Source of the DNA: Ascidia mentula | Lineage: Eukaryota; Chordata; Ascidiacea; Phlebobranchia; Ascidiidae | Length of the DNA: 64,000 bases | Reading direction: 5' to 3' | NCBI GenBank assembly: GCA_947561715.1 | Contig: OX387198.1 | Location: 15,314,001-15,378,000, forward strand | Notes under the pieces: generated by a model | What the model was told of the DNA's origin: nothing | Databases searched by the model: none | Seen by the model: only the letters and a program-made list of their open reading frames with translations | Part shown: positions 4,300 through 40,672 of the stretch, in pieces | Layout of the letters: each line of letters begins with the position of its first letter | Position numbering within the stretch: position 1 is the first letter of the stretch | Translations under genes and position numbers: made by a program

Positions 4300-4560
4300 A
4301 AAACTACACAAAAACGTATCGTTACATCCATGAGATTGCAACACCATGGATAGTGTAAGACAAATTGTCTCGTGTATGCAATTCAGCCTTACGTAAATGT
4401 AACAAACATTTATTTAACGATAAGAAAATGCCATCCTGATACAAAATATGTTTGGTACAAGCTGTAATTGAACAAACAACAGTGATGACGATTAAACAAT
4501 GCGGACACACCAGCAACATCGTCAAAATGATAACCCATGTTAAGGGTTTGATCTGAAATA
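4300..4560. repeat. dispersed repeat copy
   Basis: A diverged copy of the repeat that starts the duplicon at 5488-6010 and recurs at 41256, 43810, 52790 and 54540. Shared blocks include the stretch around AACAAACATTTATTTAACGA and the block reading TGGTACAAGCTGTAA followed by a run of TGAACAAAC type. No coding sequence is supported. Confidence 0.5.
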
Positions 4561-11600: not shown

Positions 11601-14600
11601 ATGGCAGACCAACCACCGCCACCTCGTTATGTCGTTAAACTAGTATTTCTGGATATCGAACTATACGGAAATGCAGCTCTGGCAGCAGCTCTAGCTACCG
11701 GTGTTGGTGCAGGGATTTTATTATGGAAAAACCATGAAAGATTGATTGATATCTTTGAGAAAGCAATATTAATCTACGAAGCAAATCTATTTAAAGTCAC
11801 TCAGAAGTGCATAGTTCTGACAGTCTTTGCTGAAAGTCCAGAAATTGCCAAGCGAGTTGAAAATGCATGCAAGTCTGGTGACTTGCTACGAGAGATTAAC
11901 AAAAATGTAGAGTTGTACAATGCAGAAGTAAACGATGATGTCAGTATGTTCGAATCCATCACACTCCTTTCACAAACATCACAATTGAACATCAATGAAA
12001 ACGATTTAAAAAAAATAAAACTGAAGGGCCAAGAAAACATGAAACAAACACTAAAGTTTGGACTGCAGGTAATACACTTTTATTTTTAAGTTATCATAGG
12101 CAATAAGAGTAAATTTCTCAAAAAGGTGTGGTAAGTTTTGTGTAAATGACCACAAATGTAAAGGCAGTTTTATGTATGGTTGTATGTGTATTTGCTGACC
12201 TATAGTTGCACGCTCCCGACATTATGAGTGTTATGGCTGACCTTCAGATTGAGACTAACTATGACATACCACCCGTTGGAGAATTTCCAAAAATCAATTG
12301 TGAAAAACAATCAAACAATTCTCTGGATGTTGGAGAGAAACATACCTTTGAAACTTCAGGTTTGTGTGCGATTTTCTGCATGTTTTGTCATTTTTTAAAC
12401 CTTTATAAACTTATGCTGTATATTCTTTTTTACTTTATTTCACAGAATTGCAAGAGCATGATTACAAATCTGTTCAAATTTTTCGACCTGATCAAAGTGC
12501 TAAAGGAGGTTACTCTGTTGACAAAGATGAACTGGAAAAAATATTTTCGCACCCAGACGTTGCAAACATACCGGTTGCTGTCTATTCAATTGCGGGTGAT
12601 CTACGAACAGGAAAATCGTTTTTACTTAACTTGTTTTTGCGATTTTTGGAGGCTCAAAATTCGGAAACGGTGCAGTTTTACACAAACAGACAAATACCTA
12701 ATAATAACCGTGAACTCCTCTATAATAGTTGGACAAATGGCTTAAATCAAAGGAAGACAAAATAAGCAAAGGATTTGCTTGGAAAACTGGAACTGAAAGG
12801 CACACGGAAGGTATATGGATTTGCAACGCACCGTTCTTTCTTGACACGCCAAATGGAAAGGTAAAAATTAAATAACATATATTGCCTAAATAAATTCGCG
12901 AACATGATTAGTTGGTAATGGTCCAATTAATCGACTTTTTGTGTTGAATCGCAACTATTCAAGGCTAGTAAGACCTGCTTCAAACCAGCAGGGTATATGC
13001 CTCAAAAAAAAACTTCAAATGCGCTGCGCTCAATCGCTCCTCGCCGGTTTTTTTGGCGCAAGAGGAGCGACAGAGCGCTCAATCGCTTTCGCGCTCATTC
13101 AGTTCGAAGGATGTGTATTTGATTCGCTTCGTTTTCAATCCACTTGCAGAACAGACGAATGCGAATGGTTTTAGGTGTGCGTTTTTTTTAAAGTTTGTCA
13201 CATTATATTAAATAAATGACCACATACAGAAGCTGTCATAGAAATCTCCCGTCCACTAGAGGCGATAACGAGATACGACGACAAATATATGTGCTATAAT
13301 TGATCTTTAGTTTTAATTCATGAACAACAATATGGTAAACTTATTACAAAACAAGACAAACCAAACACACTACAACATTGTGGTCAAACGCATTGGTGTT
13401 TCTTTTTATAAGGTTGCAGTGTTTTTAATGGATACTCAAGGCTCCTTCGAACCAGGGAGGAGTTTGCTGAACTCTGCCTGTATTTTGGGAATGAGTACTT
13501 TTATGAGTTCTTTTCAAATATGCAACATAATGCTCCAATTCAAAGAGGATAACATGCAAAACTTGCAGGTTAGTTTTTTGTCCTGATTCACATAACATCT
13601 GATAAATCTGAACTTTTCAGCTGTTTTTTAACTACGCAAAAGCGGCCAATAAAGGAACACCTTCCTGCAAATCATTCCAGGTGTGCTTTTTATAGGTTAC
13701 ATTAACAGGCAATTACCTATTCTCATACTGTGTCGCCACCAGGAGCTTCTGTTTCTTGTTCGAGATTGGAGAGATATTAAAAATACTAAACACTTTGATG
13801 GCGGTGAGGAAGTATTGAAAAAGTTTCTTCATCCAGCCAATCAGCACGAAGAAACAAACTTGGTTCGTAACAATTTGGAAAATTCCTTTGAAACGATTTC
13901 TTGTTTTTTAATGCCGACTCCTGGGTGCGAAGTGACGGAATGGAATGACCAGGAAAACAATATGAAATTGGCAGGTGACTCTCGTAGCATACTGCTATTT
14001 AAAAGCTTGCTTAGTATGACGAAAATATGTTTTTCAGATGTACGAAACGTCTTTCTGAATTCTGTTGATGTTTTGGCCCGCAAACTTTTTGCACCTGATC
14101 ACGTTGAAATGAAAAAAGTCCACTGTAAACCAGTGACGGGAAAGCATTTTATAAACATTACCTTGGCATACTTTGAAGTATTTAGCAGCAATAAAATGCC
14201 TGAAATTCAACCACTTTTGCAGGTTAACGTGCGGTTTTTATTTACTCATGGCGGCCATCTTTAAAAGGCACAGTAGCATAGAAACTTAGTTGCCTTATTA
14301 TCAACTGTAATTGTACTTATATTAAAAACTACATTGTTTGCTTTTGGGAGCACAAAACGTGCTTCAACAGCCCCAACATCAGTACTCATTTTAGATTCAC
14401 ATTTGCATTTTTTGCACAGGCAACCAACAAGTTCTCCTTACTAATCATTATCCATGAATGCCAACAGAAATACCAAGAGCAAATGACAAAGGTCTCGTTT
14501 CAATTTTGAAATTTGTCGATTAATGCAAACATGCCTTGCTATTTTTTACAGTCGTGCAAAAAAAAATGTTTTGGCAAAGAGGAGCTGAATCATGAACATA

Positions 14601-17600
14601 CACACTATAAAAATGAGTCCTTGACACACTTTGATCAAAAACCAAGATTTGTCAACGGGGATGATTTAACTGAACAGCATCGCGACCATTTATGTGGATC
14701 TATAGACATTACCTTCTTGTTTTTCATTCAGAAAAACAAACAAAACAGGGTAAGTGAAATACAAGAAAACCTAACATCGACTAAAATCGGATGTAAATTA
14801 TTTTCGTATTAAGATTAGGAAACAAATTTCACATCTACATACTTTAAAAATCAGTTATTTGTATTTTAAACGATTTGAGTATGATATTACGCTATAATGG
14901 CAAATGTGCATTGGATCATTTCTATTGCCATTGCCAGTGTAGGAAAGGAGGATTCGAATTCCTCTTTGATTAAACTTGCCTTCGTTAGCCATACATCACG
15001 TTTAATTTCTTAATGTGGTTAAATTTCTTTTTCCTGATAGTTTGCTATGGCACAACTTTGTTTGCTGTCGAATTAGGAATCAGCAACAACGTTTCGCTCT
15101 TTTTTGCCTTTTTTGTCACGCGTTGTTATTTATCGCCGTGTTGGCGTTTTATTTTACTTCGCTTGTCCTGATGAAGGTTGTTGAATAACGACCGAAACGT
15201 CGTCCAAACAAGTTTTTTGCCAGAAGAGCCTTAAATTATTGAATCAGCAACAACGTTCCAATATCGTAGCAAGATTGTTTTGACTGCCGAACAACGGGGA
15301 TGTAAATTGCTCATAAACCCAATATGGCCTGCTTTGAGATGGCTAAATCCACAAGATTAGGCCTACTTGTACGTATTCACGTTGCCACCATCAATGATTT
15401 TCTATTTATATTCTGCTGGAATCTTTTCCCTACATGTGTCTTCGCTTGTCTTGTCCTTTCAATTAGAAATCCGTTTCTATTGTGGCGTTGTCATGAGCTG
15501 GTATCTAATTTTTTGCTCTTATATTTTTTGTTCATAATTTGTATACCAACGAAAACCATTTCAAACCAGTATTCTACGTACAGGTTAAAACTATAGAAAA
15601 AGTTGCCATTTCGTTGACAGAGGTGGAAAACTGCTATGTAACTTCTCTCCAAACTGTAAGTTTGCTTGCCTTCTTTTCTTCAAATGCCCATTTATGCCAT
15701 GCCAATAACGTATTTATTTTTGATACAACTAAAATAAATAAATTTTAGATCGCCAGTGGGGATTACGTTGAAGAGCATGAGTTGGAGAAAATTGTTCAAG
15801 GCGCCAGTAATGAAGCATGGAGAAAGTACAATGAATTAATAAAGGATCAAAACGAAAGAGAAATATACCGTTGTGAAATACAGGAAATGATTTCTCTCAG
15901 ATTAAATCAACTGATGGACGATAATAAACAGAAACTAGTACGTCCAAGTATATTCTTAAACACAACCTTGTCATTTTTGTACTTTTCACTTTTCTGTATT
16001 AGTCCTTTCTAAATTACAGTTTAATGTCACAAGACTGGTACAATCAAATTACAGCGAATCTCCTTTTTTCAGGTTGAACTGCAACGAAACATTGAAAAAC
16101 ACTCTCTGAATGCGGTTAAAACCTACCAACACCTAATGAACACAGTTGGTTGTTTCTAGTCGTTAGCAATAAAATATTTGTGTTGGCAATAATGTTGTTA
16201 AACTACTGCAACTCTAAAATTAACATGATGTTAGGCCAACATGTTTTTATACCACACCTTAAAATGGAAAATATTGGAAATTTTAAATATATTCAAGTTG
16301 TTTATTTTTTCAGGGCTGGCTTAGCTAAGGATTTTTTTTACCTAAAAATGATTATGTAGCTTGTTTTCGGTGTAACCATTGCTGTTCTATTGGGTTTATT
16401 GCTTATGACATGTGTTGAATCAAAAGTCATTCTTTGTTTTAAAGTACCATGATGTCCTTTTCAGATACACGAAGGAAGAAGTGACTTTAAAGAGGAAGAT
16501 TTTGTCACAAATCATCGAGAAGCACAAGAAAAAGCTTTACAACAATTTAACAAAGAGTGTGTTGGTACGCAAGACGCGATGAAAGACAAAGCTGTCGGAC
16601 AAACACTTTTGCTGATAGAGGAAGAAAAAGAAAACTTTTCAAAAGCAAATGTTAGTGCTGATTAAATTTTATTATGGGTTGATTTTCTGGAAATTTTTTT
16701 TATGCTTTAGGAAATCTTTCTGGAAGAGGTATCTCCAAGTGTAGCTGATGGAAGACAGAAATATATCTCGGGGATGAAAGAGGTAGGTGAAAAACCTTGC
16801 AAAATGCACTAAACCGTGGATTATTATGAAATAGGTTTAATTTTGTTTTGCTTGTTCTATACGTGTTAAGCATATTGCATAACAACAGAGTCTTAATTCT
16901 AATGTTTTTCACAGAATCTTAACAGTGGATATACAGATGAAACAATACTTTATGAGGCTCATTTAAAAATAAAAGAACAAACTAAGGCTGGTATTTCGTT
17001 GGGAGGAAAAAACGAAAACAGTTTATCGAAATTTTATAAAATTGTCGACCATGAATATGAAAAGATAAAAAGAGAAAACGAACTTAAAAAGGTGTTTTGT
17101 TGAATATTTTTAACCTAATTCTATTTATTGCAAGGTCTTCTATGCGCAACGTCCACACACGCTAAATTTGGCATGCGTGGTCATATTCTTAGCACGCCAA
17201 TACTTTGCAAATACAGCGTTTTTTTGCGGCAGGAAGAAAGTTAAAAGTGCTAAATGTTCGGAAAATATATGAGTTTTAAGATGTAAATTAAAAATTTATA
17301 TAATGACGACGTAGTGGTTAAGCTCAACATATTTTGGTATTTTGGTATTATACTGTATGTTGGCATTAGAAGCCATTAACGCATTGACCTCACTTGTAAA
17401 CTGGCACGCAGCGTTGGAAAAGTTGTTGAATTGAATAATCCTTGTATGTTATTTCTTTGTTTTTCAGAAAATGGCAAGTCTCTTAATTCAGCAACAACAC
17501 GATGAATCACTTAATGAGTATTCAAAAATAACAAATAAAGTGAGCTTGATGTTTTTATGTTTGTCAAGAATATATCCTATTCTTTTTATTTTAGGAAACA

Positions 17601-18968
17601 GGGTTGTTTGTGGAAATGAAACATCTGGAAAAAATACACAGCGAAGCTAAGTCCAAGGTGGTGAAACAGTTTGAAGCTTTTGTGTGCAAAGAACCAAAAA
17701 AAGAGTTTCAATCAACTTTACAGCAATTAGAAGACAAAATAGACGAACTATACAAGTTGACTTCCGAAAGGAATGAAAAACGCAAGGTGAATTGATTAGA
17801 AAAAAAACGAAATACAATAAACACAAAATTTGGAAATACAAATGCTCGCGGTCAAAACAGTATCAGCTTGTGTTAACTAACGTGCGATTAAATGGTAGAA
17901 ATGTCCGTTGAAGACAAAAGCAAATTATTCAATGAAATATGTACTTTTTGTGAACTTTAACACGTTTATATTTAAAATACCAATACAGTATGTAATAATT
18001 TTTTGTTGCAACAGATGATACTTCACCACGTGGCACAATGGTCTTCCCGCTACGTCCAACTAAAATACTTAGAGTTCATGAATGAGGTAAGAACAGTAAC
18101 GCAATGTACTGTACCGCAACTTATTCGGCCACGAAATTTGGTAACATTTAACCACATAGAAAAAAATCTAAACAAGTAATTCGGAAACTTGCGGTTGGTG
18201 GCAGTGCCTTGGGGCTCCTTGTCAAATTACAGCCTGTCTATTGAGGATTATGCAGTAGCCTAAAAGACAAACATACCCAATGGCCAACATTTATTGCATG
18301 GATTAAAAAGACAATTACTTTTCTAGAATAAATCTTCAGGAGAAAAAAGAAAAAATAATACCTAAAAATTACTTTGTCGGTTTCAGACTCAACAACCAGC
18401 AAAATAACAATTTTACCGGTTATTGTATGAAAAAATGTTTAAGTGTATAAATATATTCGTGAGTTGCTTTAAAGACATTTTCTCTGTGCTTTGCATATTG
18501 TCGGGCGGCACAATTTTCCGGCCATTGTATGTTTAAAAACAAAAAAGGATTGTTATTAACCGAAAGATAACCTACATTTGATCCTGTTGCTTACAGTTGT
18601 GCGATGGAGTGCATGTCCAACCCTCGCTTTTGGAAGAGGAACATAACAAACAAAAGAAATATGCAGAAGACATGTTCAAGCAGGAATTTACAGATGATAA
18701 CGAGACAGTTCTTGCATCTGCTCTTGAGAAATGTCTCAGGAAGCTAGACAATCACTACAAACGGATTGAACGACAAAATTCCAAAAACAAAACATTTTTC
18801 CTTCGACAAAAGACCTTTCTACACGGAGATCATTTAGATTGGCATTCATATTTAGCGAAATTCCTTCACACTTTTGCGTCAAGCAGACAACAAGAACTTG
18901 ACAAATTAACAGATAGGTTTCATGGTTTGTTATTTCATCGCTTGGTGTGTGAAATCCATTGCTCGTAA
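11601..18968 (+). CDS. atlastin-like GTPase gene A with six tandem helical-bundle modules
   Basis: Predicted 1118-residue membrane GTPase, open through 20 exons: 11601-12068, 12206-12359, 12446-12669, 12729-12860, 13413-13568, 13621-13680, 13743-13974, 14038-14222, 14420-14491, 14552-14749, 15584-15655, 15749-15937, 16073-16144, 16465-16650, 16711-16782, 16915-17091, 17468-17539, 17595-17786, 18015-18086, 18597-18968. Residues 24-42 form a likely membrane segment, and 68-140 resemble a TRADD-N region. The atlastin/GBP G domain shows GDLRTGKS (258-265), HTEGIW, MDTQGSFEP (from 332) and LVRDW (404-408). From residue 538, six modules follow, each a 24-codon exon plus a longer exon, resembling the single three-helix bundle of atlastins. 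No C-terminal membrane pair is seen. The start was chosen because gene B and the truncated third copy begin at the same place; an acceptor TTGCAG lies just upstream. Atlastins fuse ER membranes; the role here is unknown. Confidence 0.85.
14990..15290 (+). mobile_element. Penelope-like element 3' remnant inside an intron of gene A
   Basis: This part of intron 10 matches 36380-36600, the tail of the Penelope-like element at 35.7-36.6 kb. Shared features are a TTTTTTGCC-type tract, TATTTA followed by a GCGTTTTATTTTACTTCG block, the hammerhead, and a downstream block with TTGCCAGA. The phrase AATCAGCAACAACGTT occurs on both sides (near 15075-15090 and 15240-15257), so the piece may be flanked by a short duplication. 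No coding part remains. Confidence 0.55.
15160..15212 (+). ncRNA. Penelope-type hammerhead motif
   Basis: Core CUGAUGA at 15168-15174, helix II GGUUGUU-GAAU-AACGACC at 15176-15193 (seven pairs including one G-U), GAAA at 15194-15197, then CGU and C at 15198-15201. Helix III would be only the self-complementary ACGU, as in minimal Penelope hammerheads that are thought to act as dimers. The outer helix I is imperfect here (a U-U mismatch at the second pair), so activity is doubtful. Confidence 0.55.
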
Positions 18969-19960
18969 TTACGGCCCCAGCGAATGAACGTAGTGTAAGT
19001 TTTCACTATTGTTAGCATTGTGTGAAGATTGTGACGGTTGTTTAGAAACGCAGAACAGCAAGAAAAGAAACTTTTAGTTTTGTGTTTGTGTGTCTATTCA
19101 AACGGTTATTGTGAGCGATATACCGCTTTATTTTGAATGTACAATTTTTATTGTCTTCTTTCTTTTGTGCACTAAACGTTTTGCTTCGCAGCTTCCTGGG
19201 GTTAGTGCTAAATAAAGGATCGCTTGCATGGTCACTCTGGACTAAAATGAAAACGTTCGAAAGTAGCGTGAAATCGATACAGACATAAATGAAGTTTTGT
19301 AGCAACTGGGCACAGAAACCAAAAAGTTACAAATGCGTTAACGATGACATAATAACGTCAGTAACAATTTATGACATAATAACCTCACAAAAGAGAGGCA
19401 GCGACTCCTCAATTTGCGAATGACTTTTTGTTACCCAACTGAGTTTGCCCACTGGATTGTTGTTGTTACTTTGCTAAACGTGTTTCATGCCTATAATTGT
19501 GTTTCTCTTTTTTAGATGATGTTACATACAGCAGATCACTGCATAATAACAGCAAAAAAAGTTTAAACCAGTTTTTAGGGAAACAACCCAGTTTAACAAA
19601 ATATTATTATTTGTAATTGCCTGAACGACGCAAGTTTGATTATAGGTAAAACGAAAAAGAAGGCTCTACGAGCAGAAAACGGAAAAACAATTCTTTCTTT
19701 TTTAGACCACTGGTACATTGGAACCCAAATAGACCTGTTGGTCTCAAAACCACAGAAAGAAATTTCAAAAATAGCGGAAAACAGCTAACAAAGACTTGGA
19801 AAAGCATAAGTCATGAACAAAATCTTTGTTTTTACGGATATGAATATTATTTGCAGCCATCATTATCACTGAAAAAACAGCGCAGTTCAAAACAGAAGTT
19901 GTTTAAAATGTTAGTAAAAAACACACACACTGACATTCAGATGTAAGGACTGCACATTAG
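18969..19960. other. gene A 3' region
   Basis: Follows the gene A stop codon. A polyadenylation signal AATAAA lies at 19211-19216, 243 nt after the stop, a reasonable 3' UTR length. Beyond it the sequence is AT-rich and holds no recognisable gene. Confidence 0.5.
19211..19216 (+). terminator. putative polyadenylation signal of gene A
   Basis: Canonical AATAAA 243 nt downstream of the gene A stop codon. It is assigned on position only; no transcript evidence is available. Confidence 0.45.
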
Positions 19961-24884: not shown

Positions 24885-25925
24885 CAGTTTAAGAAATTCA
24901 TGGCATTCAACGTACACTCTGATTTTCGTGTGCAGTTGCAAGCGCTTTAGCTTAAGAAATTCATTGCGTTCAACGTCCACTCTGGTTTTTGTGTACAGTT
25001 GCAAGGGCTTGAAGCTAAGAAATTCGTTGCGTTCAACGTACACTCTGGTTTTTGTGTAGAGTTGCAAAGGGCATAGGGTTAAGAAATTCGTTGCTTTCAA
25101 CGTACACTCTGGTTTTTGTGTAGAGTTGCAAGGGCTTAGGGCAGCGGTGCACAACCTGCGGCCGTACGGCCGCATGCGGCCGCGGACGCTATTTTTTGCG
25201 GCCGTGCACATTTATATCAAAATATATGCATTGGCGGCCGTTGCTTCTGAAACTTGTTTTTCTAGCGGTCGCAAGAGTTAAGCTTTTAATTCGGCCCATA
25301 ATTCACATTTTATTACATTGTAATATACGTAATTTGGCAAATGTAAATAATAAATAGTGCACATTTTTCAGGTATGGAATCATTTCCATTCGTTTCTAAT
25401 AATGCTCACGTCAACTTGTCGTAATTATCAGGAGTATATCGTTGGAAAAGCAGTATATTCAGTGGCGGCCGTTAGCACACAGTGGTGTGTGTGTTGCGGC
25501 CGGCAATAGTAAAAAGGTTGTGCACCCCTGGCTTAGGGTCAAGAATTCGTTGCGTTCAACGTACACTCTGGTTTTTGTGTAGAGTTGCAAGGGCTTAGGG
25601 TTAAGAAATTCATTGCGTTCAACGTCCACTCTGGTTTTTGTGTAGAGTTGCAAAGGGCTTTAAGCTAAGAAAATCATTGCGTTCAACGTCCATTCTGGTT
25701 TTCGTGAACAGTTGCAAGGGCTTTAAGTTTAAAAATTCCTTGCGTTTAACGTACACTCTGGTTTTCGTGAACAGTTGCAAGGGCTTTAAGTTAAAAAATT
25801 CATTGCGTTCAACGTCCACTCTGGTTTTTGTGTAGAGTTGCAAAGGGTTTAAGCTAAGAAATTCATTGCGTTCAACGTACACTCTGGTTTTCGTGAACAG
25901 TTGCAAGGGCTTTAAGTTAAAAAAT
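24885..25925. repeat. 63-bp minisatellite, about ten units, interrupted by a MITE
   Basis: Units of about 62-64 bp carry GCGTTCAACGTACACTCTGG followed by TTTTTGTGTAGAGTTGCAA or a close variant. Four units lie at 24885-25133 and about six at 25539-25925, separated by the insertion at 25142-25530. A 63-bp period keeps long stretches open on both strands (minus-strand repeat TKTRVYVERNEFL), which explains the open frames without needing a gene. Confidence 0.85.
25142..25530. mobile_element. hAT-type non-autonomous element (MITE), 389 bp
   Basis: Terminal inverted repeats CAGCGGTGCACAACCT at the left end and AGGTTGTGCACCCCTG at the right end (one mismatch) are flanked by the 8-bp duplication GCTTAGGG at 25134-25141 and 25531-25538. 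An 8-bp target duplication with CAG...CTG ends is the hAT superfamily signature. There is no transposase. The interior begins and ends with GC-rich GCGGCCG palindromes around an AT-rich centre. It split a pre-existing minisatellite array, so it is younger than that array. Confidence 0.9.
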
Positions 25926-25939
25926 TCATTGCGTTTAAC

Positions 25940-26530
25940 GTTGGCCGCGCGGTTCCAGGTTTTCGGCTGCTATAGTGCAGGGTAACCTGGGCGTTTACTA
26001 TATTGGGGTTGCTAAAAATCGCAGTTCGGGTAAGCTTTTGGTTTTGACCGTTAACATCTCGCACCCTGAACTAATTTCGATTACACTAGTAGTTAGATTA
26101 CGTGTGCACACATAATTTGGGCAGTTATTTCCAATCAATCTACAGTTTTCATTTGTTCTGTTTTGTGGCTTAGGTTATCGACAGATAGTCATTTTGGTTT
26201 TCCTCTAATTTAAAACATAAAAGTATGTTAGTTGACAAACATTTAAAAGCTATTTTGAAACTTAAACTGATGTCTGGCAACATTTACCTCCCAGACTTCG
26301 GCATTTTTATTGTGCTTGACAGGTTTAACGGTGTGATTCAGCCTTTGTTGGATCCTTTGTGTTGAGGTGAGTCATAAAACTCGGCGCCTACCTCAGAGCG
26401 CATGCAACGATTTGTTAGTTTTTGAATTGAGTTTTTTCAACACAAATTCATGCCACAAGCAGTATGCTTATTATCACATCGTTTCGAAAAGCCACCACAT
26501 GCCATTGTGAACGTTTAAGATTTAAATTGT
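25940..26530. repeat. duplicon fragment upstream of gene B
   Basis: About 25940-26245 matches 8480-8790 and 44895-45200. About 26240-26520 then jumps to sequence matching 9900-10080 and 10500-10550. This compressed version of the gene A upstream region supports gene B having arisen together with its 5' flank, followed by internal deletion. Confidence 0.6.
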
Positions 26531-26766: not shown

Positions 26767-29700
26767 ATGACCGAAAATTCTCCGCCAGCACGTTTTTCCC
26801 TGGATTTAAAATGGTTCAAGATTGAACTTCATAGAAAAGCCGCTCTTGCGGCAAGTGTTGCTTTGGGAGCTTCTGCTGGGTATTTAATATTTCGGAATCC
26901 AGAAAAATTTATAAATATGTTGGAGAAGCTAGTCTCAAGATACTGTGCATACTTATTTGGCGTCACTCAAAGCAGCATAGTTTTGACAGTCTTTGCTGAA
27001 ACTCCAGAAAACGCCGAACGAGTGGAAAATGCATGCAATTCTGGTGACTTGTTACGAGAGGTTAACAAAAGTGTGAAGTCCTACAATGCAGAAGTAAACG
27101 ATGATGTCAGTATGTTCGAATCCATCACTTTCGAAACATTGGAATCAAACATTAGTAAAGAAGATTTAGAAAAAATAAAAATGAAGGCAAAAAAAACTTG
27201 CAGGAAACAATTGAGTTTGGATTGCAGGTGACACAGTTTTTTGTTTAAATAGCAATTTGTAAAACCATAAAGATGGACAATATTTTTTGATACATGTGTA
27301 AGAAGTGTATGTTTCTTGAATAATATATGGTCACTTTTGCCAATTTAGTAAACGGTGACAAACTAATGTATTTAAATGTAATTATCTTTGCTGATGCAGC
27401 ATGTTCCCGACATCACAAGTATAATTGGTGAACTCCAGATTGAGACCAAAGAATATATACCGTCTGTGAACGAACAACAAAGTCAAATCCAACACAAAAA
27501 GAAATCAAACAGTGTTACGGAAGAGAAACAACATTTATTGAACATAGGTTTGCTTATTACATTATATACATCAGTGGTCTTCAAATTGTGCGTCGCGACG
27601 TATCGGTCCAGAAATTCTAATTACAGTAGTTTCATTGACTTCACTGACTTAGTTATAATGAAGGTTGACATTTCACCATTATTGATAAAAAATGTACAAT
27701 AATTACAAAGTTTTTTTCATGTTTTCATAGATTTGCATGGAGTTAACCAACATGCCAAACCTGTCCAAATCTTTCGTCATGATTGCAAAGTTGATGGGGG
27801 TTACTCTATCAACAAAGATGAACTGGAAAAAATATTTTCACACCCAGACGTTGCGGAAATACCGGTTGCTGTCTATTCGATTGCGGGTGATCTACGAACA
27901 GGAAAATCATTCTTACTGAACTTGTTTTTGCGATTTTTGAAGGCTCAACAGTTGGAAATGGTACATTGTTGTATAAACATAGTAATGCTTAGAAATACAT
28001 AAATATTTGTTGCAGTTGGACCAATGGCTTGAATCAAAAGGAGACGAATTAGATAAGCAAAAAGGTTTTGATTGTAAAGGCGGAAGTAAGAGACAAACGG
28101 ATGGTATTTGGATTTGGAACAAACCGTTCTTTGTTGACACGGAAAGAGGAAAGGTAAAATTAATGTTTAATCTAATTGAAACAATATACATGTTGTCCTA
28201 AATACTACAAAAAATGCAATTTCAATGTGAATCCGAAACTTTCAGTCAAATGTTTCAGTGATTTTTGCTTTATAAAGGTTGCTTTGTTTGTAATGGATAC
28301 CCAAGGCTCTTTCGAGCCTGGAGGGAGTATTGAAAACTCTGCCTTTATTTTTGGACTGAGCACTTTGATGAGTTCATTTCAAATATGCAACATATTGACT
28401 CAATCAAAAGAGGATAACTTGCAAAACCTGCAGGTTGGTTTATTGTCTCAACTATCATCATAAGTTTTAAGATGAAATTTTCCAGCTGTTTGTTGACTAC
28501 GCAAAATTGGCAAAGAAGGAGAAGCCTACAGACAAGCCATTTCAGGTCTGATGATTTTGTACGTTTTATTAAAAATCACATATATTTTTTTAATGTTGGC
28601 ATGTCTTTAGGATCTCTTGTTTCTTGTTCGAGACTGGAGGGATATTGCAAACACCAAAAATTTTGATGGTGGTGAAAAAATACTTTACGAGGTCCTTCAC
28701 CCAGACCAACAGCACGAAGAAACAGATACGGTTCGCCAATGTATACGAGAATCCTTCGAAAACATTTCTTGTTTTTTGTTACCAAATCCTGGCGAGAAGG
28801 TGGTGGAATGGAATGAACTCGGAAAAAGCAGTTTAAAACTCTCAGGTGGCACCTATGATATGCCATTAAAATGCTGAAGCATTATTGAAATATGCCTACT
28901 TATTTCAAAATATACAACAGATATGCTAATGCTTTTCAGATGTAAGGAACACTTTCCTGGAGTCTGTTGATATTTTAACTCGGAAACTTTTTGTCCCTGA
29001 TCACATCAAAATGAAAAAAATCGACTGCAAATCAGTGACAGGAAAAGATCTCATCAACTTTACTTTGGCTTACTTTGAAGTTTTTAGCAGTGACAGTATG
29101 CCAAAAATTGAACCACTTTTGCAAGTAAACATACAGTTGTTGTTTAACCTCCGTTAAATTATCTTTTCATGCACGATATTTAATATGTATAAATATAGTT
29201 AGAACAATAGGTACTTGTGATGAACATAACTGACAACAATGCGCTTTTTTTGTGACGTATGAGTTTCTACAAATTTATGCATTCTTGCTTAGGCTACCAC
29301 GAAGGCCTCCTTATTGACCATTATTAATGAGTGCAAGGAGAAATACAAGAAACAAATGATAATGGTAGGTTTACAATTCACACGTTACTGAAAATTGGTC
29401 AAGTAGTGGTTCTGTTTTTTTACAGGGATGCAACGCAAGATGTTACAGCAGTGCGGAACTAAAGCTTTTACACAAAGAATGTACAGAAGAGACTTTATCA
29501 TGCTTTGATAGGCACCCAAAGTTTGGTAACGTGAATTTAGCTGAACAGCATACCACTCACCTGCGTGACGTCATCGAGCTTTTCTTTATGCGCTTCGTCG
29601 AGGAAAACAACAAAAATAAAGTAAGAAATGAAAATTCAACATGCAGGTTTTAACATGAACCCCCGTTAGTAGAAGGAAATTGCGAGATAACACACAACGA

Positions 29701-32700
29701 AAGATGATGTGTTATTGTGTAGTTTAGTTCTTTGTCACATTTTTTTTCTGTCAAAAAGGAATTCTCCCAAAGCGGGCGGCCATTGGTATTGTGTGACGCT
29801 GTAAAACAAAGTTAGCATTCTTTATTACATGCTTGTTTGATTGAAACTGTGGTTCGAGATTTCAAAACAACTTCGGTATACAAAAAATTTCATTGAAAGT
29901 GTGGACATAAATTGCGCGCTTGGTTAGTAGAATTTGTCAAAAACGCTCCATTGCGGTTGAAAAGTAGACAAGATTGCGTATTCTTTTAAAAAGGAATTCC
30001 GCTTACGGAATGCTGAATTTCCCTCTGTCGAAATTATTTTTTTTTGTTGGCGGTTCAACTTTTATCGTTTTGAAAAATTCCTTTATTTACTTTATGTTCC
30101 TTTATTTAATTTGAAGAATATTATGCAACACGCATTTTTGAGTTTGTTATGCTATGCAACTTATACAATTAAGTGCTTAACAGATCAAAACTCTAGAAAA
30201 GGTTGCTCAGGATCTGACAGAAGTGGAAAAACGTTTCGTAACTTCCCTTCAGACTGTAAGTTAATTTGCTTATATTGTTGGCACATAAGTTTTTTTTATG
30301 GTCGGTGCAAATAACAGTTTTGCTTTTGGTTGTAATTTTGTAGATCGCCAATGGATATTATGGTACTGAACGCGAGCTAATGGTCAAAGCACACTCTGTC
30401 TGTGAAAAAGCAAGGACCCAATACAATGAATTAATTGATGATCCAATAACAAATGAAATATATCGCTCTGAAATGGAGGGGATGATTTCTCTTAGGTTGA
30501 AACTACTGAAAAAGAGCAATAACAAAAAACGGGTAGGTTCAGGTTTATCGGCCACATCGCAGAAAGTAAGGTACACTATTTAATTAGCTTTTTTGCTGCG
30601 CTTTTCGTAATATGACGGATCGCAGATTGATTTTGAAAGACGTCTGTAACAAAGTTCTTTGGTCAGACCAAATTATTTGGACGCGGTGACTGCGTGATGA
30701 GTGCGTTACTATGGTAGCGCTTTGCAAGCATTGTTGCGTATCGAAAGGGTTTTAGGGAAAATTTTTTTTCATCGGCAAAATAACCTACGTATTCGTCGTT
30801 ATATGGTATTTAGACATCATAATTCGTGCAAAAGCAAATACGCCACAAAGCTATTTTGTCAGCCACGGGACGTAGTGTATAAGAACAAAACCCCCTTCAA
30901 AAGACCTCAGAATCTTGATCGTTAAATCAGTACTGCAACAGGTTTGTGGAAACAACGTGAATTGTAAAAGCACTGGTTAAATTTCTTCAGAATATCATAT
31001 TTTGATCTAACTACATTTATCCAGAACCAACTGAAAGGCAAAGCTGGACAAAAATCGCTGGATGCGGTTGAATATTACACATCTCTAATGAACGCAGTAA
31101 GTGGTTCTTGATGTTGGCAAAACAGACAATTGAATTGGAAAACAATCAGAAGAGTTCTAAATGGTTCTGTTTTACAAGCACTTGATAAAAGGCTATGAAC
31201 AACTGTTTCAATGTATTAAGTAACTTTTACTCCACGATTTATAGCTTAAAAGATATTTACCCGCGTTGTAATAAGAAACGAAATAAGAATATTGAAACAT
31301 ATTTTGCTGATAGAAATGCGGAGAGACTGTTTTAAATGATGAAGAGTTTACATTTGCCCATCAAGAAGCAGAAAAGGAGGCGTTGCGGAAATTTAACGAG
31401 GATATTTTGATCGAGGACACAGCTATTAAAGACAATGCTACCAGACTCCTGTGTTTGATGATAAAACATGCAAATACATACTTTGTTAGATCCAATGTAG
31501 GCGGTTGATAATAGTTGTCATGCAAATATATCTTTAATCATAAGGTTCACAGGCTTCGCAGCCAAGGCATTGCAGCCAAGCTGGATCAGCCACTTTTCCC
31601 GACAAGTCGGAGCGAGATCTGAAAAATCAAGGTCCCGGTGAGGTTTGAACTCACGACCCTGGGCTAACCAGGCCCCACGCTCTACCAACTGAGCTACAGG
31701 AGCTCAGTGGCTTCACGGGGTATATTGTGGCCAAGGTACACTGGTGCGCAAGCGCACAACTTGTCAGGCGACCTTCACATGCGTAGAGGATCTCCACCAC
31801 CGTAATCAGACAACGCAGAAGTAATGCCATGCTTACGCATAGCAAGGCGGGATCGCCCCACTGCGCAGGCCATTTATATTTGTCGATCACAGCTCTAATA
31901 TTCCGATCATAAGGTTCACAGGCTTCGCAGCCAAGCTGGATCAGCCACTTTTCCCGACAAGTCGGAGCGAGATCTGAAAAATCAAGCTCCCGGTCGGGAA
32001 AAGGGGCTGATCCAGCTTGGCTTACTTATGAGGCAAAAACTCGACGATTCGTTTGCTGAGTATTCAACAAAAATCAATGAAGTAGGTTTGCATTTTAATT
32101 TTTGTTTGTCAAATCTATGTATATACAGGCCTTGATGTAGTTTCAAACCTAAATGTTATTCGTCAGATGACGGAGGCATTTGTGGAAACAAAAAACTTGG
32201 AAAAAATACACAACAGTATAAAGCTCGAGGCAATGGATAGTTTTTGAAGCATGCGAATGCAAAGAGCCAAAAAACGAGTTCCAAAAAAGTTTGCAACGCT
32301 TAGAAGAGAAAATAAGCAAACATTACAAGTTGACTTGCGAGAGGAACGAAGAGCGCAAGGTAAATTTGATAAAAAGCTTAACATAACTGGTTGACAGATT
32401 CATAATCTGAGAAAAAAATATGACTTACAGGAGACACTCAACCATGTGGCAAACTGGTTTTCCTACTATGTCCAAGTCAAATACCTGAAATTCATGCATA
32501 AGGTAATTAGTAAATTAACAAAGGATAAGTATTAATACATAATTGCATTATTTATTTGGACACGAAAGATTGGAATAATTACTCATAAATCGTAAAATAT
32601 GTTTGACCTGTAACAAAAGATTTAAGTGCAACAGCTTACCAGACATCATGTTTTATTATAATTGGAAGCAAAATGTGTTGAAAAATATTGCTTGACATCT

Positions 32701-33236
32701 TAACATTACAATATCTATTTCGCACTGCAAACATTTATAGTCACGTTACGTGGTTTGACTGTAAATGTTTAACAAATACATCAAATGTATAAAAATTAAG
32801 CAGTACAAAACATGATCAATAACAAGAAAAAAACCTTTGGTCCTATTGTTTTCAGCTATGCGATGCAGTGTATGTCAAGCCCTCGCTTTTATCCGAAGAA
32901 CACAATAAACAAAAGGAAGAAGCAAATGGCATGTTTAAGGAGGAAGCTACCGATAACAACGAGAGAATTTTATCAGCAGCTCGTGAGAAATGTCTGAAAC
33001 ATCTTGATGTTCACTACATGCGACTTGAAGAACAAAATTTTCGAAACAAGCAATTTTGTTTGCGGAAAATATCCGAAAATTTTTATGGCATAGCTGAAAA
33101 CATCGAATTCAAAAAACTAAAACGGTTCCTTAAAGTATTTAGGGGAGAAAAAGTATCGGCTGGTTTGACTGGTTTATTTGTAACTCAACTGGTGCGTAAA
33201 GAAGTTAGTGTACAAGCACAATCGTACTTCATTTAG
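26767..33236 (+). CDS. atlastin-like GTPase gene B, damaged paralogue of gene A
   Basis: Exons: 26767-27227, 27400-27547, 27731-27960, 28016-28153, 28278-28433, 28486-28545, 28611-28845, 28940-29124, 29293-29364, 29426-29620, 30184-30255, 30344-30532, 31025-31096, 31314-31496, a remnant 32016-32081, then 32167-32359, 32431-32502, 32856-33236. Intron positions and phases equal those of gene A. Kept features are the N-terminal membrane segment (AALAASVALGASAGYLIF), the TRADD-N-like region, GDLRTGKS, RQTDGIW, MDTQGSFEPGG and LVRDW. Three lesions exist. An 8-A run near 27189-27196 is one base short and shifts exon 1 before its donor. The two exons of module 4, with the acceptor of the next exon, are replaced by a SINE at 31.5-32.0 kb. 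Exon 18 is 193 nt in place of 192, with an in-frame TGA near 32247. Taken literally it is a pseudogene; a homopolymer error could explain the first lesion but not all three. Confidence 0.7.
31631..31703 (-). tRNA. tRNA-like head of the SINE (not a functional tRNA)
   Basis: Minus strand: acceptor strand GCTCCTG, D arm GCTC-AGTTGGTA-GAGC, T arm GTGAG-TTCAAAC-CTCAC, and 3' acceptor strand CGGGACC. A box TAGCTCAGTTGG and B box GAGTTCAAACC are good pol III promoter matches. The anticodon arm is one base too long, and one acceptor pair is C-C. Together with the SINE body this argues for a retroposon head and not a tRNA gene. If the bulged arm is folded, the loop CTGGTTA would give a Thr-type GGT anticodon, which is a weak assignment. 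Confidence 0.6.
31929..32022. repeat. 30-bp inverted repeat at the SINE / gene B junction
   Basis: Positions 31929-31958 and 31993-32022 are reverse complements over 30 nt with one mismatch, separated by 34 nt. The right arm contains TGATCCAG directly before a run that is in frame with exon 17 of gene B, so it may supply a replacement splice acceptor. Confidence 0.85.
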
Positions 33237-34639: not shown

Positions 34640-35366
34640 TTTACTGATAGAGAAAGAAAATATACTTTATAAAAGAAAATGAAGGTACTGATTGAATTTT
34701 ATTATAGGTTGATTTTCTGGAAAAAAGTTTTATGCTTTAGGAACCTTTTCTGGGAGAAGTATTTCCAATTGTAGCTGATACAAGACAGCAATATATCTCA
34801 GGGATAAAAAAGTAGGTGACGACTATTGATAAACTTTGCCAAATCAACTAAAGCGTAGCCTATTATGAAATAGGTTAATTTTTTTGGTTAATGCATGGGG
34901 TAAAAACAGTAACGCAACGTACCTTACCGGCAAGTTTTAGGCCACGAAATTGAGTAATAATTAACCATAAAGAAAAAAGGGCCAAACAAGTATTTTAGAA
35001 ACTTGCGTCAGGTGGTAGTGCCTTTGACAGCCCCGTCAATTTAAGAACTGTTTGTTCAGAATGATCCGGTAGCCAAAAAGACAAACATACTCAATGGCCA
35101 AACATTGTTCTGGACATTATATGTTTGAAACAAGAAAGGATTGTTATGAACATTAGCCTATGTTTGCTCTGTTGCTTGCAATTGTGCGCTGGAGCTTATG
35201 ACAAACCCTCGCTTTTAAAAGAGGAACATATCAAGCAAAAGAAAGATGAAATGTTCGAGCATGAATTCCAAGATGATAACGAGACAGTCCTTACATTTGC
35301 TCTTGTGAAAGGTCTCAGGAAACTAGACAATCATTACATACGGATTATCCGTGGTGAGAGCTTTTA
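34640..35366 (+). pseudogene. atlastin-like gene remnant (third copy, 3' pieces only)
   Basis: Pieces of a third paralogue lie in order. The end of an exon-14 equivalent is at about 34640-34685. An exon-15 equivalent at 34741-34811 (GEVFPIVADTRQQYISG) is one base short of 72 nt. Intron sequence then jumps to intron-19-like sequence at about 34905, followed by a last-exon equivalent at about 35176-35366 (YDKPSLLKEEH, DDNETVLTFAL). The acceptor of the last piece is AA where gene A has AG. The G domain and N-terminus are missing. This copy keeps a piece of module 4 that gene B has lost, so it is not simply the displaced part of B. Confidence 0.75.
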
Positions 35367-35725
35367 GATATTTTAACGACAAGTTTCGAACCATTATCAA
35401 AGCTAAAACCAATAAAAACCATATAATAGAGTTTTCCTATGTAAACTACACGAGTACTGCATTGTGAAGTGGTATAATCATAAAGGCCAATGCGGCGCAG
35501 ATAGAGCTTTGATTGCCCTTATTGCGTCAGTAAGGACTGCGTAGGCACGTGAGTTTGCACTACACAGTGTTGTAACATTTCAATGTCACCTTGCATATTT
35601 GGTGTAAAAATAAAATGCAAAATTGTATTTTTAATTGTCAGACCGAAATCAACTTTAGGAATTTTAGAAAGCTAGTAAATAGTTCGTATATTTATACAAA
35701 AGGTTTCATATTTATAGATATAAGG
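35367..35725. other. intergenic, nothing recognised
   Basis: AT-rich sequence between the atlastin-like remnant and the Penelope-like element. No conserved frame, repeat or RNA signal was noticed. Confidence 0.3.
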
Positions 35726-36600: not shown

Positions 36601-37214
36601 TTTAGATATGGAAACGTTATCAAATGCGGTACTGCTGCACTGAAGTTATTTTCTCTTGGCAAGTCAAGATTTGAAAATAGTTTTGATATTTGTTTTATTT
36701 TTTACTTGCTTGGCATGTTTTTTTTATTTGTTTGAAGTTAGTAGCATAAAAAAATCTAATAAAGAAGTTATGACCTGGTTTGGATGGAAAAAAAGTCTGC
36801 CAGAGTACACCAACAGAGGCTCAGACGCTTTTTCGCCTTGCTCGTTTTTGAGTCTACTCTGAGCGAGCGATGTAGCCAATGTGAAGCCATCCTAAAGAAA
36901 GTAAATAGAACAATTGATATTGGGTTTGCCAGAGGATAAATCAACATTAATTGTTTTGTGCAAAATATCTAATGTGTAACATGGTAAACTGAACAAAATA
37001 AAGCTGTTTACCCATTCACAAAGGCAATATCACCAGCGCTGCACAAAATATCTGTTTTTTGATACCCCAAGTAAAAATTTACCTTGTGTTTGTTTATCAA
37101 GCAACGTCAGATGTTTGTCAAACACTCAGACAGCGATGAATGGTTCAATCGAAAGACCTGGCAGATCAATATTACTTGATCAGTTCCTACAAGCTCACCA
37201 GAGTGGAAATCACA
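36601..37214. other. upstream region of the Ig/sushi receptor
   Basis: AT-rich with no repeat shared with other parts of the window that I noticed. It should contain the promoter of the receptor gene; no convincing TATA element or initiator was assigned. Confidence 0.3.
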
Positions 37215-40200
37215 ATGAAATTTCTGAACTGTTTTCTAATACTTAGCTGTGTTTGCCTGCAGGCTACTTTGTCAGAAGGAGTGGAAGGTTAGTTGTGTGA
37301 AGTAGAAATTGTGAAAGTGATTTCTGTTTGTAATTTGTACTGGATTCCCGCAGTTAGTATTGAGTTAATTTGCTATAGTTTATTTTACTCAAAGTAATTC
37401 TTCACTACGTACCTTTCTAAATATGATTAGATTGCTTCCAGAGAATTTGCACAACAGTGTTTCCAACACATTTCTATTGGCCAGTGGGATACAAAGGACT
37501 TCTTTATAACTTTACAAATTCTGATTCCTATTCACGTTACCGGTTGATCATCAACAAAGACCAGGAGTTTATTTATAACGAAAGTTGTAATCTCAAAAGT
37601 GGTTTCGAATATTCGCCTTTTAAATGTAACTGTGATTGTGATGGCGGTTCTGTATCACTACTTTTATCGACTGAACAACTTTCCCCTTTGCATGATCAAA
37701 CTGTGGTGGAATATGGTCACAAAAATTGGCTCTCTTCTGATTGGACTTCCTGTAAACTAAACATCTCAGTAAAAAGTATAATTTTTTTATATTACTATGT
37801 TCAAAGTTAACTTGTGCTGCTATAACAGACTGCCCATCAATTTTACCTTTCAACGTGAAAGTCAGTTCCAACAACTACACATACAATGAAACTGGAGAAT
37901 TTTATTGTAATTCAGGACAATTGTTTTATGCAAATTCATCAGAAATACTTGATAACAAAACTCAATGTTTGGCGACAACAGAATGGAAAGATCAAGCGGG
38001 AATAGAATGCTGGGGTGGTAAGTGACCTTTTAATACAGAGATGACCGCCGTTTAACATAGGGCGCTGAAATATAGGATAATTGTATCATTGTTTTGTGGT
38101 AAGTTCCACACCAATCAATCTATCGATAGCTTGCATAATTTGAACCGTAAATTACTATTTTTTTTCTAGCTCCGAATGTTTCGTTAAGGATTGAAAAACC
38201 TTTCTGTCCTGTAACTGGAGATAATATAACAATGCATTGTTTGTACCAAAATACAACACCAGAAGGAAATGAAAGCATGTATTGCTTTGGACACAACTGC
38301 ACGTTGAAACCTACAGTAATACTAGAAGAGAAAAGAAACATAATATTACACAAGGTTACAGAACTTTTTTTCATGAAGGGTGTTGCTTTTTCAATGCAAC
38401 TGAGTTTGTTAAATAACGGATCAAGCATTTGGTGTCAAGCAGTTACACCTTTTACGCAACTTAACAACAACACTGGTCGATCTACAGAGGAATTTCTTTA
38501 CGTTTATGGTAACATTTTACCATACAAAGTATACATTGCCAATAAATTTTGTTCCTTTATGTTTCAGAAGCACCTGGTGATGTTAAGTTAAGATACAATG
38601 AGAGTCAGGATGTTTTGTCCACTGACCGTAATGTTTTGCTAAATGGAATTCAAACACTGATGTTGAGTTGCCAAAGTGCAAACAATGCCAGTTGCAATTG
38701 CACTTGGCTGTTAGATAATGGACCACTTACGACCCGTTCCTGCGAGATTGTTCACATTTTCCAGCAAAACACGACTTTGTTCTGCCAAGCAAGGAATTGT
38801 GCTGGAAACCGATCAAGCAAATCAATCACATTTGTAATTGTCGAAGAGAGTGAGGATTTTTATCCACAGTATTTTGTGAAGTAATATTTGACGATATCAC
38901 CAGAATTAGAACAAAACTAACTTTAATTTTGCATATTATACTACAATGAATAACTCTGTTAAAGGTTAGTAGTAGGTTAAAATTCTGTTAATGTTGGAAA
39001 TGGAAGATACCTGCGAATCTGCCAACTTTTATGACGAAAATGATTGTTTACCTCAGGGTCAGAGGAAGCTGGAATTGTTACGTCAATGAACGGATCAATA
39101 AAAGCTGGAGGGAATCTGGAACTAAACTGTAGTGTTTCTTATCAGAACGAACTAAGCACAAAGTTTCGATGGGAAATTCCTTCCCCAAGGGGAAGTTTTG
39201 ATGCAAACAATTCGTTTTTACATTTAACAAACCTGACAAGACATGATTGGGGAAATTATTCTTGCATTACAAGCGACGTTTTTCAATCAACAGAAAACAG
39301 CTATTTCGTGGATGTTTTATGTAACAACATAAATTAACTTAATAAAAAAAACTTATAAAAACTATAACGACTTCTCATTTTCTTTTCAGATTCGCCAGAA
39401 AATTTAAGTGGAAACATTAATTGTACTTGGGCCGAAGTTGAAAACCAAACTTGTGTTGTAAATTTTACTTCAAACCCTCCAGCAAATAACTTTGTTGTCA
39501 CCAGAAATGGCGATTTGTTGAATTGCCCTATGTGTTACATCAGTAATTACACAAATGAACCAAACTTACAATCGTTTACCTTGATTACCACAGTAAGTAA
39601 ATTCTGTTGCGTTGGATTCTTTGCAAAAACTAACAGAAGTTATCAATAGACTTCAAACGAGGATGAGTATTTCGAGATTTCAATAATTTCATACGGAATG
39701 GATCCACTGGTCGTTCAAATGAAAATATCCAGCGAAAACTTGGTCTCCAATGACAACCAGCTTGTCATTATTGCTTCCAGCGTTGTTGGAGGCATTGTGA
39801 TTCTGGTTGTCCTTGTTATAGTGATCGTATGTTGGCGAAAAGAAGCACGAAAAAAGGAAGGTTGTATTTGTAGTTCTACAGAATAAAATTTTATGCTGCT
39901 AAAGAGGTTCAAAAATAAAGTTTGTTTTATATAAAATTACCGATGTGTCAAACGATTCGGCCAAAGGCTTTTCAAGTGATTACATTTTACCGAAAACTGT
40001 GTTACGTTAAACAATCGCATTGATTTTAGCAAAGGAGATGCATCCAAATCCAATTTTCTCTGCAAGTGACAATATCTATGCTGAAGTTGAGAAGTCAAGC
40101 AATACAGGTAGAAGTGTGAAAAAATGTGTTTGTGTTTTTAATTATTATTGTTTCAAAAGTTGTTTTAAACTAGCATTAGGAAGAGTAAGTGCAATTGTTA

Positions 40201-40672
40201 GTTTAAATTTAATCTATCAATAGTTTGTGGCCATTCCATTTATGTCGCAGATGAAGCCATTGTAGACTTAACATTGCAAACCGTACACTATGATGTCGTA
40301 GGTGAAGATATTGCTATAGAACATTCTTATGAAGAATTAGATTCGACAAAAGACGAAACTGAAAGTATGTCGTTTAACGCGTGGTTTGGCTTGCAACGTT
40401 GCAAGCAATGCTTTTTGTGGTATTTTTAGCAAAAGAAGATCGTTTAAATCCCATATACAAAGCAAGCGATTCCCTAGATGTTGAAGATAATTATGCATCT
40501 GTTGACAAAACAAAAAAGGCTCCGAAAAGTGAGGTATTATCCTAACTTAACTTTTGTGGTATTTAATGTTGTTTACTGAATTTCAGAGGACAAAGAAGAG
40601 AAATTAAATCCATTGTATGGAGAATATCCTCATGCAAAGAAACGTGCATTGAAACAAAGCAAATCCAAATAA
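37215..40672 (+). CDS. sushi/Ig-domain type I membrane receptor with tyrosine motifs
   Basis: Twelve exons join to exactly 760 codons plus stop: 37215-37287, 37431-37775, 37829-38017, 38170-38508, 38568-38849, 39057-39320, 39390-39592, 39650-39860, 40030-40107, 40251-40364, 40430-40528, 40587-40672. Residues 1-24 hold a signal peptide (MKFLNCFLILSCVCL). Residues 25-139 form a Cys-rich domain I do not recognise. About 139-202 is a sushi/CCP-like domain (GEFYCNSGQ and a final IECWG). Residues 203-315, 316-409 and 410-497 are Ig-like (the third has the classic GNYSC). A membrane segment spans about 603-626, followed by a basic stop-transfer. The tail carries NIYAEV, VHYDVV (fits the ITIM pattern), SYEEL and DNYASV. 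Most domain borders are phase 1, usual for extracellular modules. It has many N-glycosylation sequons. It is probably a cell-surface recognition receptor; the ligand is unknown. Confidence 0.85.
39882..39919 (+). terminator. intronic polyadenylation signals, possible short-tail isoform
   Basis: If the donor at 39860/39861 is not used, exon 8 of the receptor runs on for eight codons to TAA at 39884-39886. AATAAA occurs at 39882-39887 and 39914-39919. That transcript would encode a receptor with the membrane segment but none of the tail tyrosines. No RNA evidence is available. Confidence 0.4.

Follow-up and report, generated by a model that had tools for sequence, protein, structure and literature searches.

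A 64,000-nucleotide stretch of the Ascidia mentula genome (contig OX387198.1, positions 15,314,001 to 15,378,000; the whole stretch is termed the window) contains a predicted gene, gene A, that very likely encodes an atlastin-derived large GTPase with six helical modules in tandem behind its G domain. Gene A is located at positions 11601–18968 of the + strand. Its 20 predicted exons have GT/AG borders and join into a single open frame of 1118 amino acids (aa). The explanation as a whole, i.e. an atlastin-derived large GTPase with a six-bundle neck, which would act as a membrane-anchored, GTP-driven rod with a suggested job in defence, is considered fairly likely.

Exons 9, 11, 13, 15, 17 and 19 of gene A are each 72 nucleotides (nt) in length, open, bordered by AG/GT and in phase 0. 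Each is followed by a longer exon, also in phase 0, and the two together form one module: module 1, 14420–14491 and 14552–14749 (198 nt); module 2, 15584–15655 and 15749–15937 (189 nt); module 3, 16073–16144 and 16465–16650 (186 nt); module 4, 16711–16782 and 16915–17091 (177 nt); module 5, 17468–17539 and 17595–17786 (192 nt); and module 6, 18015–18086 and the terminal exon 18597–18968 (372 nt), which includes the C terminus and a TAA stop codon. All are on the + strand. The alternation of six 72-nt exons with phase 0 exons of 177–372 nt, as described in the original prediction, is exact to the base in the spliced model. The residue counts given there are reproduced as well: Tyr is present at residue 18 in all six 24-aa exons, Met is at residue 22 in four (Leu and Thr in the remaining two), and four of the six long exons display a His-x10-Phe motif.

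A scan of positions 14001–19000 for open 72-nt stretches with AG and GT borders yields eight, and the six that have Tyr at residue 18 are the six gene A exons. As a control, the same scan with ten further lengths in the range of 60–90 nt gives 40 open stretches in this region, one of them with Tyr18. Among 80 distinct long exons (score of 20 bits or more) at loci outside of the window, 75 have an open 72-nt exon at most 900 base pairs (bp) upstream with Tyr, Phe, His or Cys at residue 18 (Tyr in 73), compared with a null value of 25% of 400 random positions for an upstream 72-nt exon.

The G domain is encoded by exons 3–8 at positions 12446–14222 of the + strand (12446–12669, 12729–12860, 13413–13568, 13621–13680, 13743–13974 and 14038–14222). 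An apparent frame break between exons 3 and 4 was rejected; comparison with the matching junction of gene B, a paralogue described below, suggests an ordinary 59-nt intron. A Pfam scan of gene A (E-value limit of 1) gives PF02263, the G domain of the guanylate-binding protein (GBP) family, at aa positions 230–497 (E = 3.9e-41), and one further match at chance level. PF02263 covers both the GBP and atlastin families, and the database atlastin P0003 also displays it. In the PDB, aa positions 201–628 of gene A (428 residues) match atlastin-1 (4idn) with E = 1.8e-62. This alignment runs from the G domain into the three-helix bundle, and module 1 is therefore the atlastin bundle. Thus, by sequence, gene A has both an atlastin-type G domain and the three-helix bundle behind it. 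The best GBP match in the PDB is to GBP5, with E = 0.0038 against 1.8e-62 for the atlastin, which does not indicate a GBP-type G domain. The motifs GDLRTGKS (aa position 258), DTQG (333) and RDW (405) are present, and these we take to be marks of atlastins. For the GBP_C family (PF02841), gene A has no match up to E = 1. The protein ends in CEIHCS, with no C-terminal isoprenylation (CaaX) motif, although this motif is not universal among GBPs.

The best database relatives of gene A (aa positions 200–1118) are two proteins of Clavelina lepadiformis, P0001 and P0002 (LOC143462270 and a relative), which are labelled as uncharacterized and as guanylate-binding protein 7-like isoform X2. They show identities of 30% and 29% over 93% and 88% of the sequence. 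P0001 matches GBP5 with E = 2.9e-18, and PF02841 with 19.1 bits, below the cut-off of 24.3.

To compare modules 2–6 with known structures, a 15-row profile was built from these modules of gene A, P0001 and P0002, leaving out every module 1. It gives 26 matches in the PDB at E-values up to 10, and the top 11 are all atlastin chains. The best match is to positions 336–413 of atlastin-3 (E = 3.8e-12); the first match outside of the atlastins is a chain named H12 (E = 0.011). With hhalign, modules 2–6 of gene A, gene D (a second paralogue) and the two Clavelina proteins align to the bundle of two database atlastins with a probability of 97.0%, while 20 column-shuffled controls reach at most 6.2% and a reversed control 0.3%. 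Taken by position, the probabilities are 96% for module 1, 93% for module 6, 85% for module 3, 29% for module 4, 21% for module 5 and 5% for module 2. The weak modules are linked through the others (modules 1 and 4, 92%; 5 and 6, 89%; 2 and 3, 56%). The module region also displays helical periodicity (z = 4.0 in gene A and 3.4 in P0001, compared with 0.5 in the gene A G domain). Pro and Gly are nearly absent at the module junctions: across 20 junctions in four proteins they make up 9 of 640 residues, whereas the loop that follows the 24-aa exon has 26 in 264. The pattern suggests a continuous helix from the end of one bundle into the start of the next. In spectrin rods a helix of one bundle runs on into the next in this manner. 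The comparisons support the interpretation that modules 2–6 represent further copies of the three-helix bundle of atlastins. The six tandem two-exon bundle modules that were originally proposed to have arisen by cassette duplication are thus favored in common by the PDB profile, hhalign and the exon pattern, all of which are readings of sequence.

A profile made from genes A and D detects all six modules in each Clavelina protein, with weakest E-values of 0.07 and 0.19. A profile from Clavelina alone detects five of the six gene A modules and misses module 3. When the modules of gene A and P0001 are compared, the best match is the module at the same position for modules 1, 2, 3, 5 and 6; module 4 is the exception and is the least Clavelina-like. 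The likeness between the two species is highest at the ends (z = 9.8 for module 1 and 9.1 for module 6; 1.9–7.1 for the others). A search of the protein database with the Clavelina modules yielded nothing but the two Clavelina proteins.

A tree was made of 48 modules from eight genes (gene A, five other six-module paralogues and two Clavelina genes; 89 columns), with modules labelled by their order along the gene and genes picked for having six modules. The modules group by position 1–6 with 5 changes, which is the minimum; shuffled labels give a mean of 31.6, and none of 200 shuffles is as low. Support for the six position groups (bootstrap/SH-like approximate likelihood ratio test) ranges from 89/88 to 99/97; three of the six reach the strict mark, and the rest have bootstrap values of 89–94%. 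The tree has several long branches, including those of gene A modules 2, 3 and 4, and two of its rows are under half filled. A larger and quicker tree of 79 modules has 6 changes, with positions 3 and 4 each split in two. Since the modules group by position across genes and species, the six-part rod appears to be ancestral to them, and it probably predates the split of the gene A lineage, Clavelina and the sampled paralogues.

Copies with different numbers of modules, the search for which was proposed with the original prediction, are present among the paralogues. Genes with four modules read 1-2-5-6 in all five that were examined (L023, L025, L029, L031 and L032); their third module is placed with module 5 with 77% support. 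In L031 and L032 the long exons of modules 2 and 5 start at 3330 and 3986, and at 3227 and 3880, which leaves too little DNA for two hidden cassettes. L032 has an extra module-6-like exon further on that may belong to a neighbour. L021 probably has the order 1-2-1-2, and in L018 and L022 the modules look like 1-1-2; the support values for these three are low, from 80 down to 21%. The sequences indicate that modules are lost and gained in some paralogues after the six-part ancestor.

The family is large. The genome (196 Mb) has 154 G-domain matches, counted exon by exon. Grouped by hand from the matches listed, these represent at least 102 places, not counting genes A, B and D; they are loci and not necessarily intact genes. 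A non-random sample of 25 paralogue loci was analyzed (L009 and L012–L035, of which L033 and L035 overlap), 20 of them on the contig termed C52. Clear tandem modules are found in 19, and in these a separate partner exon of exactly 72 nt with Tyr or Phe accompanies 68 of the 83 long exons (a stricter count, which has no null value). Six modules are present in L009, L015, L016, L019, L027 and L034, although the fourth and sixth long exons of L016 score just 13 and 14 bits. Thus the original description of six modules in one GTPase stands for gene A, but the arrangement is a trait of a family that includes the paralogues and the two Clavelina proteins.

In L015 (contig C67, − strand) eight modules were indicated initially; this was rejected in favor of six full cassettes and two surplus module-6 long exons. 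Because the surplus exons have no 72-nt exon of their own, L015 is counted as six. The module-6 long exon occurs here three times, at strand positions 4307, 5005 and 5718, behind one module-6 short exon. The three copies may possibly be alternative last exons.

The original prediction placed the bundle of atlastins between the G domain and the membrane segments. The canonical atlastin C terminus has two membrane segments and a tail. In gene A a hydropathy scan with 19-residue segments shows no C-terminal membrane pair; values above 1.3 are found at aa positions 23–41 (1.62) and in one G-domain stretch. The placement is valid for the G domain and bundle, but the hydrophobic segment of gene A is N-terminal. 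In the same scan the database atlastin P0003 reaches 2.54 and 2.37 toward its C terminus, and the C terminus of P0001 displays two weakly hydrophobic stretches.

The N-terminal segment is encoded by exon 1 (11601–12068, +), which contains the start codon, the hydrophobic segment and a domain of ~110 aa; exon 2 (12206–12359, +) is a linker to the G domain. Exon 1 matches 24 places in the genome, including genes A, B and D. Three more of these places are situated upstream, by 3 kb at most and in the same orientation, of other G-domain matches on contig C67, and many are away from any G domain among the matches listed. Examples of the latter are found at C2:2236552-2718733 and C2:12516780-12522014 (L037 is one such place), and at C1:1139579, C1:2161403, C2:15849544 and C2:15918267. 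A relationship of the exon-1 domain to TRADD-N was considered, but the resemblance is too weak for an assignment; one of five relatives resembles TRADD-like_N weakly (E = 0.12, below the cut-off) and the other four have no match. In the genome the Pfam TRADD-N family itself has a single match, which does not lie close to gene A. A PDB profile search with the exon-1 domain gave nothing better than E = 0.67, and residues 1–205 of gene A have no match in the protein database at E = 1.

In the proposed mechanism, the neck would have been enlarged from one to six three-helix bundles by duplication of the two-exon phase 0 cassette in an ancestor shared with Clavelina. The bundles would be stacked end to end by way of continuous helices and would form a stiff rod of ~20–25 nm (an estimate, at ~4 nm per bundle), which the N-terminal hydrophobic segment may hold in a cellular membrane. 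Upon GTP binding two G domains may pair and module 1 may swing. In excerpts of PMC12312388 and PMC11746146 this is described for atlastins and GBPs, where GTP pairs the G domains and the first bundle or middle domain swings across. The five further bundles would lengthen the lever beyond module 1. A rod with GTP-driven pairing is considered moderately probable. Likeness between species is greatest in modules 1 and 6, and the 1-2-5-6 genes lack the middle modules. Function may thus reside in the two ends of the rod, module 1 next to the G domain and module 6 at the tip, and the middle may set its length and reach.

A GBP-like job against intracellular invaders, done by atlastin descendants, is suggested by the size of the family, its tandem turnover and its decayed copies. 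The silkworm protein BmAtlastin-n, an antiviral atlastin relative that is free of membrane segments, suggests the same by analogy. A role in cell-autonomous defence is given here tentatively, as somewhat short of an even chance. More tentative still is the broader proposal that in tunicates atlastin gave rise to a separate branch of cell-autonomous immunity. It would comprise about a hundred GTPases on rods with fixed ends and an exchangeable middle, the rod length being varied by adding, dropping or possibly alternatively splicing symmetric phase 0 cassettes. No GBPs were found in Ciona, as quoted in PMC4926086.

Gene D, just beyond the end of the window, is intact and encodes 1118 aa in 20 exons with the lengths and phases of gene A. 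The two proteins are 91% identical, and introns 9–19 are 91–99% identical. The rates of nonsynonymous (dN) and synonymous (dS) change between A and D are 0.042 and 0.061, a ratio of 0.68 overall. By region, dN/dS values are 0.019/0.046 in the G domain, 0.056/0.021 in module 1, 0.005/0.062 in module 3, 0.010/0.043 in module 4 and 0.028/0.021 in module 5; the ratio is near 0.9 in module 6 with the C terminus. With introns this similar, these values show that the pair is young and that the signal of selection is weak. Purifying selection across the whole protein was therefore rejected as a conclusion from this pair, as the signal is not seen in modules 1 and 5.

Several observations weigh against the explanation preferred here. 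The A/D comparison is one, with its high overall ratio and with dN above dS in modules 1 and 5. The module-by-module profile comparison with the atlastin bundle is another: good for modules 1, 3 and 6, it is weak for modules 2, 4 and 5 when these are taken singly. Among the 25 sampled loci, three (L013, L024 and L035) have no module or one at threshold, and three (L012, L014 and L033) have only doubtful modules. Pfam and PDB profile searches give the N-terminal exon-1 domain no confident family, and no marker of defence was found directly. The A/D ratios, together with the decay of gene B and of a further remnant, would agree with a view of the extra modules as relaxed, drifting sequence in a young and partly dead tandem family, in which only the G domain and module 1 function. 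This is judged very unlikely: Clavelina and five further paralogues with six modules have the six positions in the same order, most of the modules examined retain the 72-nt length and Tyr18, and in modules 3 and 4 of the A/D pair dN is well under dS. It is even less probable that the six-cassette gene A model is an artefact of prediction and that the actual transcripts differ. Module 3 has a weak donor (GTTGGT), but gene D has the same donor and the same 20 exons, and the database Clavelina proteins hold six modules in one chain, although these may be predictions too.

Two other functions can be proposed for the same architecture, each considered unlikely. Gene A may be a fusion or tethering GTPase of the endoplasmic reticulum (ER) with an extended reach, parallel to Sey1p/RHD3, whose long stalk spaces or tethers membranes and which has no part in immunity. 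The atlastin-type G domain and module 1 agree with this, as do the two weakly hydrophobic stretches at the C terminus of P0001 and the longer bundle of Sey1p, for which a role in dimerisation or spacing is suggested (excerpt of PMC9804665). However, gene A lacks the C-terminal membrane pair of a canonical atlastin, about 100 places with decaying copies are unexpected for a housekeeping fusogen, and the 26 PDB matches of the module profile (E-values up to 10) include no chain named as Sey1p, and neither do those of gene A itself. The second possibility is a scaffold or sensor arm in which the exon-1 domain, as a TRADD-N-like domain, would signal once triggered by the GTP-oligomerised rod, much as in a death-adaptor platform. 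The spread of exon-1-like domains over 24 places, many of them not beside a G domain among the matches listed, and the one weakly TRADD-like relative are in its favor, and fusions of TRADD-N with GBP GTPases are reported in metazoa (excerpt of PMC8195603). Against it are the E-value of 0.12 for that relative, the four relatives with no match, and the PDB and database searches described above for this domain. Compared with these alternatives, the membrane-anchored, GTP-driven rod with a suggested defence job is retained as the preferred explanation.

Other features of the window are as follows. Gene B, the decayed paralogue, is at positions 26767–33236 (+). Modules 1–3 and 6 are recognizable and module 5 is damaged; module 4 was not found in this region, and exon 1 can no longer be read in frame into exon 2. 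A tRNA-Thr-like sequence (31629–31704, −) lies inside a repeat-ended element (~31540–32030) in the interval between gene B modules 3 and 5. The element is probably a tRNA-derived short interspersed element that helped break gene B. The remnant of a further copy is at 34741–35390 (+, ends approximate), with a module-4-like short exon detected by eye and a module-6-like long exon at 35191–35361 (64% identity). Downstream of the GTPase block, at 37200–40670, is a receptor-like gene with apparently immunoglobulin-like exons (by eye). The same type of gene is seen again after gene D (L010, 1316–2766); since it follows both, GTPase and receptor may have duplicated together. Two near-alike protein kinase open reading frames are at 48993–50084 (+; Pkinase E = 8.7e-32) and 1436–2446 (−). 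A 63-bp tandem repeat forms two arrays, 24889–25138 (4 copies) and 25530–25941 (6.5 copies), and a retroelement fragment with reverse transcriptase and RNase H is at 55798–56502.

A 2022 review asks if atlastins have assumed defence functions in invertebrates that lack GBPs (excerpt of PMC9005921). The gene A family offers a test case for this question, with an ancestral design, length variants (1-2-5-6 and probably 1-2-1-2) and a high copy number. It may also represent a natural experiment on how stalk length affects the behaviour of a dynamin-superfamily machine, since modules are added or dropped in frame and the 1-2-5-6 genes retain both ends.

Among known systems, the atlastins (ATL1-3; 4idn, 5vgr) share with gene A the G-domain motifs and module 1, and modules 2–6 match the same bundle. 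Gene A differs in having six bundles instead of one, an N-terminal hydrophobic segment in place of the C-terminal membrane pair, and an extra domain. The original statement that known atlastins have one bundle is true of canonical atlastins, but an iterated module profile finds several in other relatives. The moth (Ostrinia) protein P0015, named atlastin-like and 771 aa in length, has four modules and a partial fifth; 13 proteins from metagenome, transcriptome or other sources (P0005, P0007–P0014 and P0016–P0019) have three each; P0021 has five; and P0022 (Styela) has one clear and two weak modules. Without iteration the counts are 3 for P0005, 2–3 for P0011, P0015 and P0018, 4–5 for P0021 (some with E > 0.01) and none for P0022. 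P0021 (1663 aa, jgi source) runs into an Hsp70-like domain, which is either a real fusion or a merge in gene calling. P0015 may be, at a guess from its length and lineage, the ortholog of BmAtlastin-n. An excerpt of PMC4926086 describes the latter as an antiviral atlastin-family GTPase of 770 aa without membrane segments and with a "coiled-coil middle domain". It differs from gene A in being an insect protein with fewer modules. To our knowledge it has no exon-1 domain.

GBPs (GBP1, GBP5) also have a G domain followed by a helical stalk; they are distinguished from gene A by the low similarity to GBP5, the lack of a GBP_C match and the lack of a CaaX end. The Sey1p stalk is made of several bundles, and Sey1p/RHD3 are atlastin-like GTPases with an extended helical stalk, similar in build to the stalk predicted for gene A. 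In Sey1p, however, membrane segments follow the stalk and in gene A they do not. According to excerpts, the GBP stalk crosses over upon GTP, and in GBP1 helices 7–11 form a middle domain that precedes a long effector domain (PMC11746146), while the Sey1p helical bundle is "significantly longer" than that of atlastin and is followed by two membrane segments (PMC9804665). The original view that the architecture is unlike that of described proteins is thus too broad as to stalk length, given Sey1p and GBP1, but it may hold for the six-bundle rod. In a search of chiefly open-access literature, neither such a rod nor the strict 72-nt cassette or its module turnover was found, and among the matches listed there was no title on multi-bundle atlastins or on tunicate GBPs or atlastins. 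Longer stalks are already known in the superfamily and multi-module relatives occur among the database proteins; the ancestral six-bundle rod, the 72-nt cassette and the module turnover appear to be the new part. The Clavelina proteins P0001 and P0002 have no exon-1-type domain (by eye and by search) and P0001 has a weakly hydrophobic tail, but both display six modules in the order of gene A.

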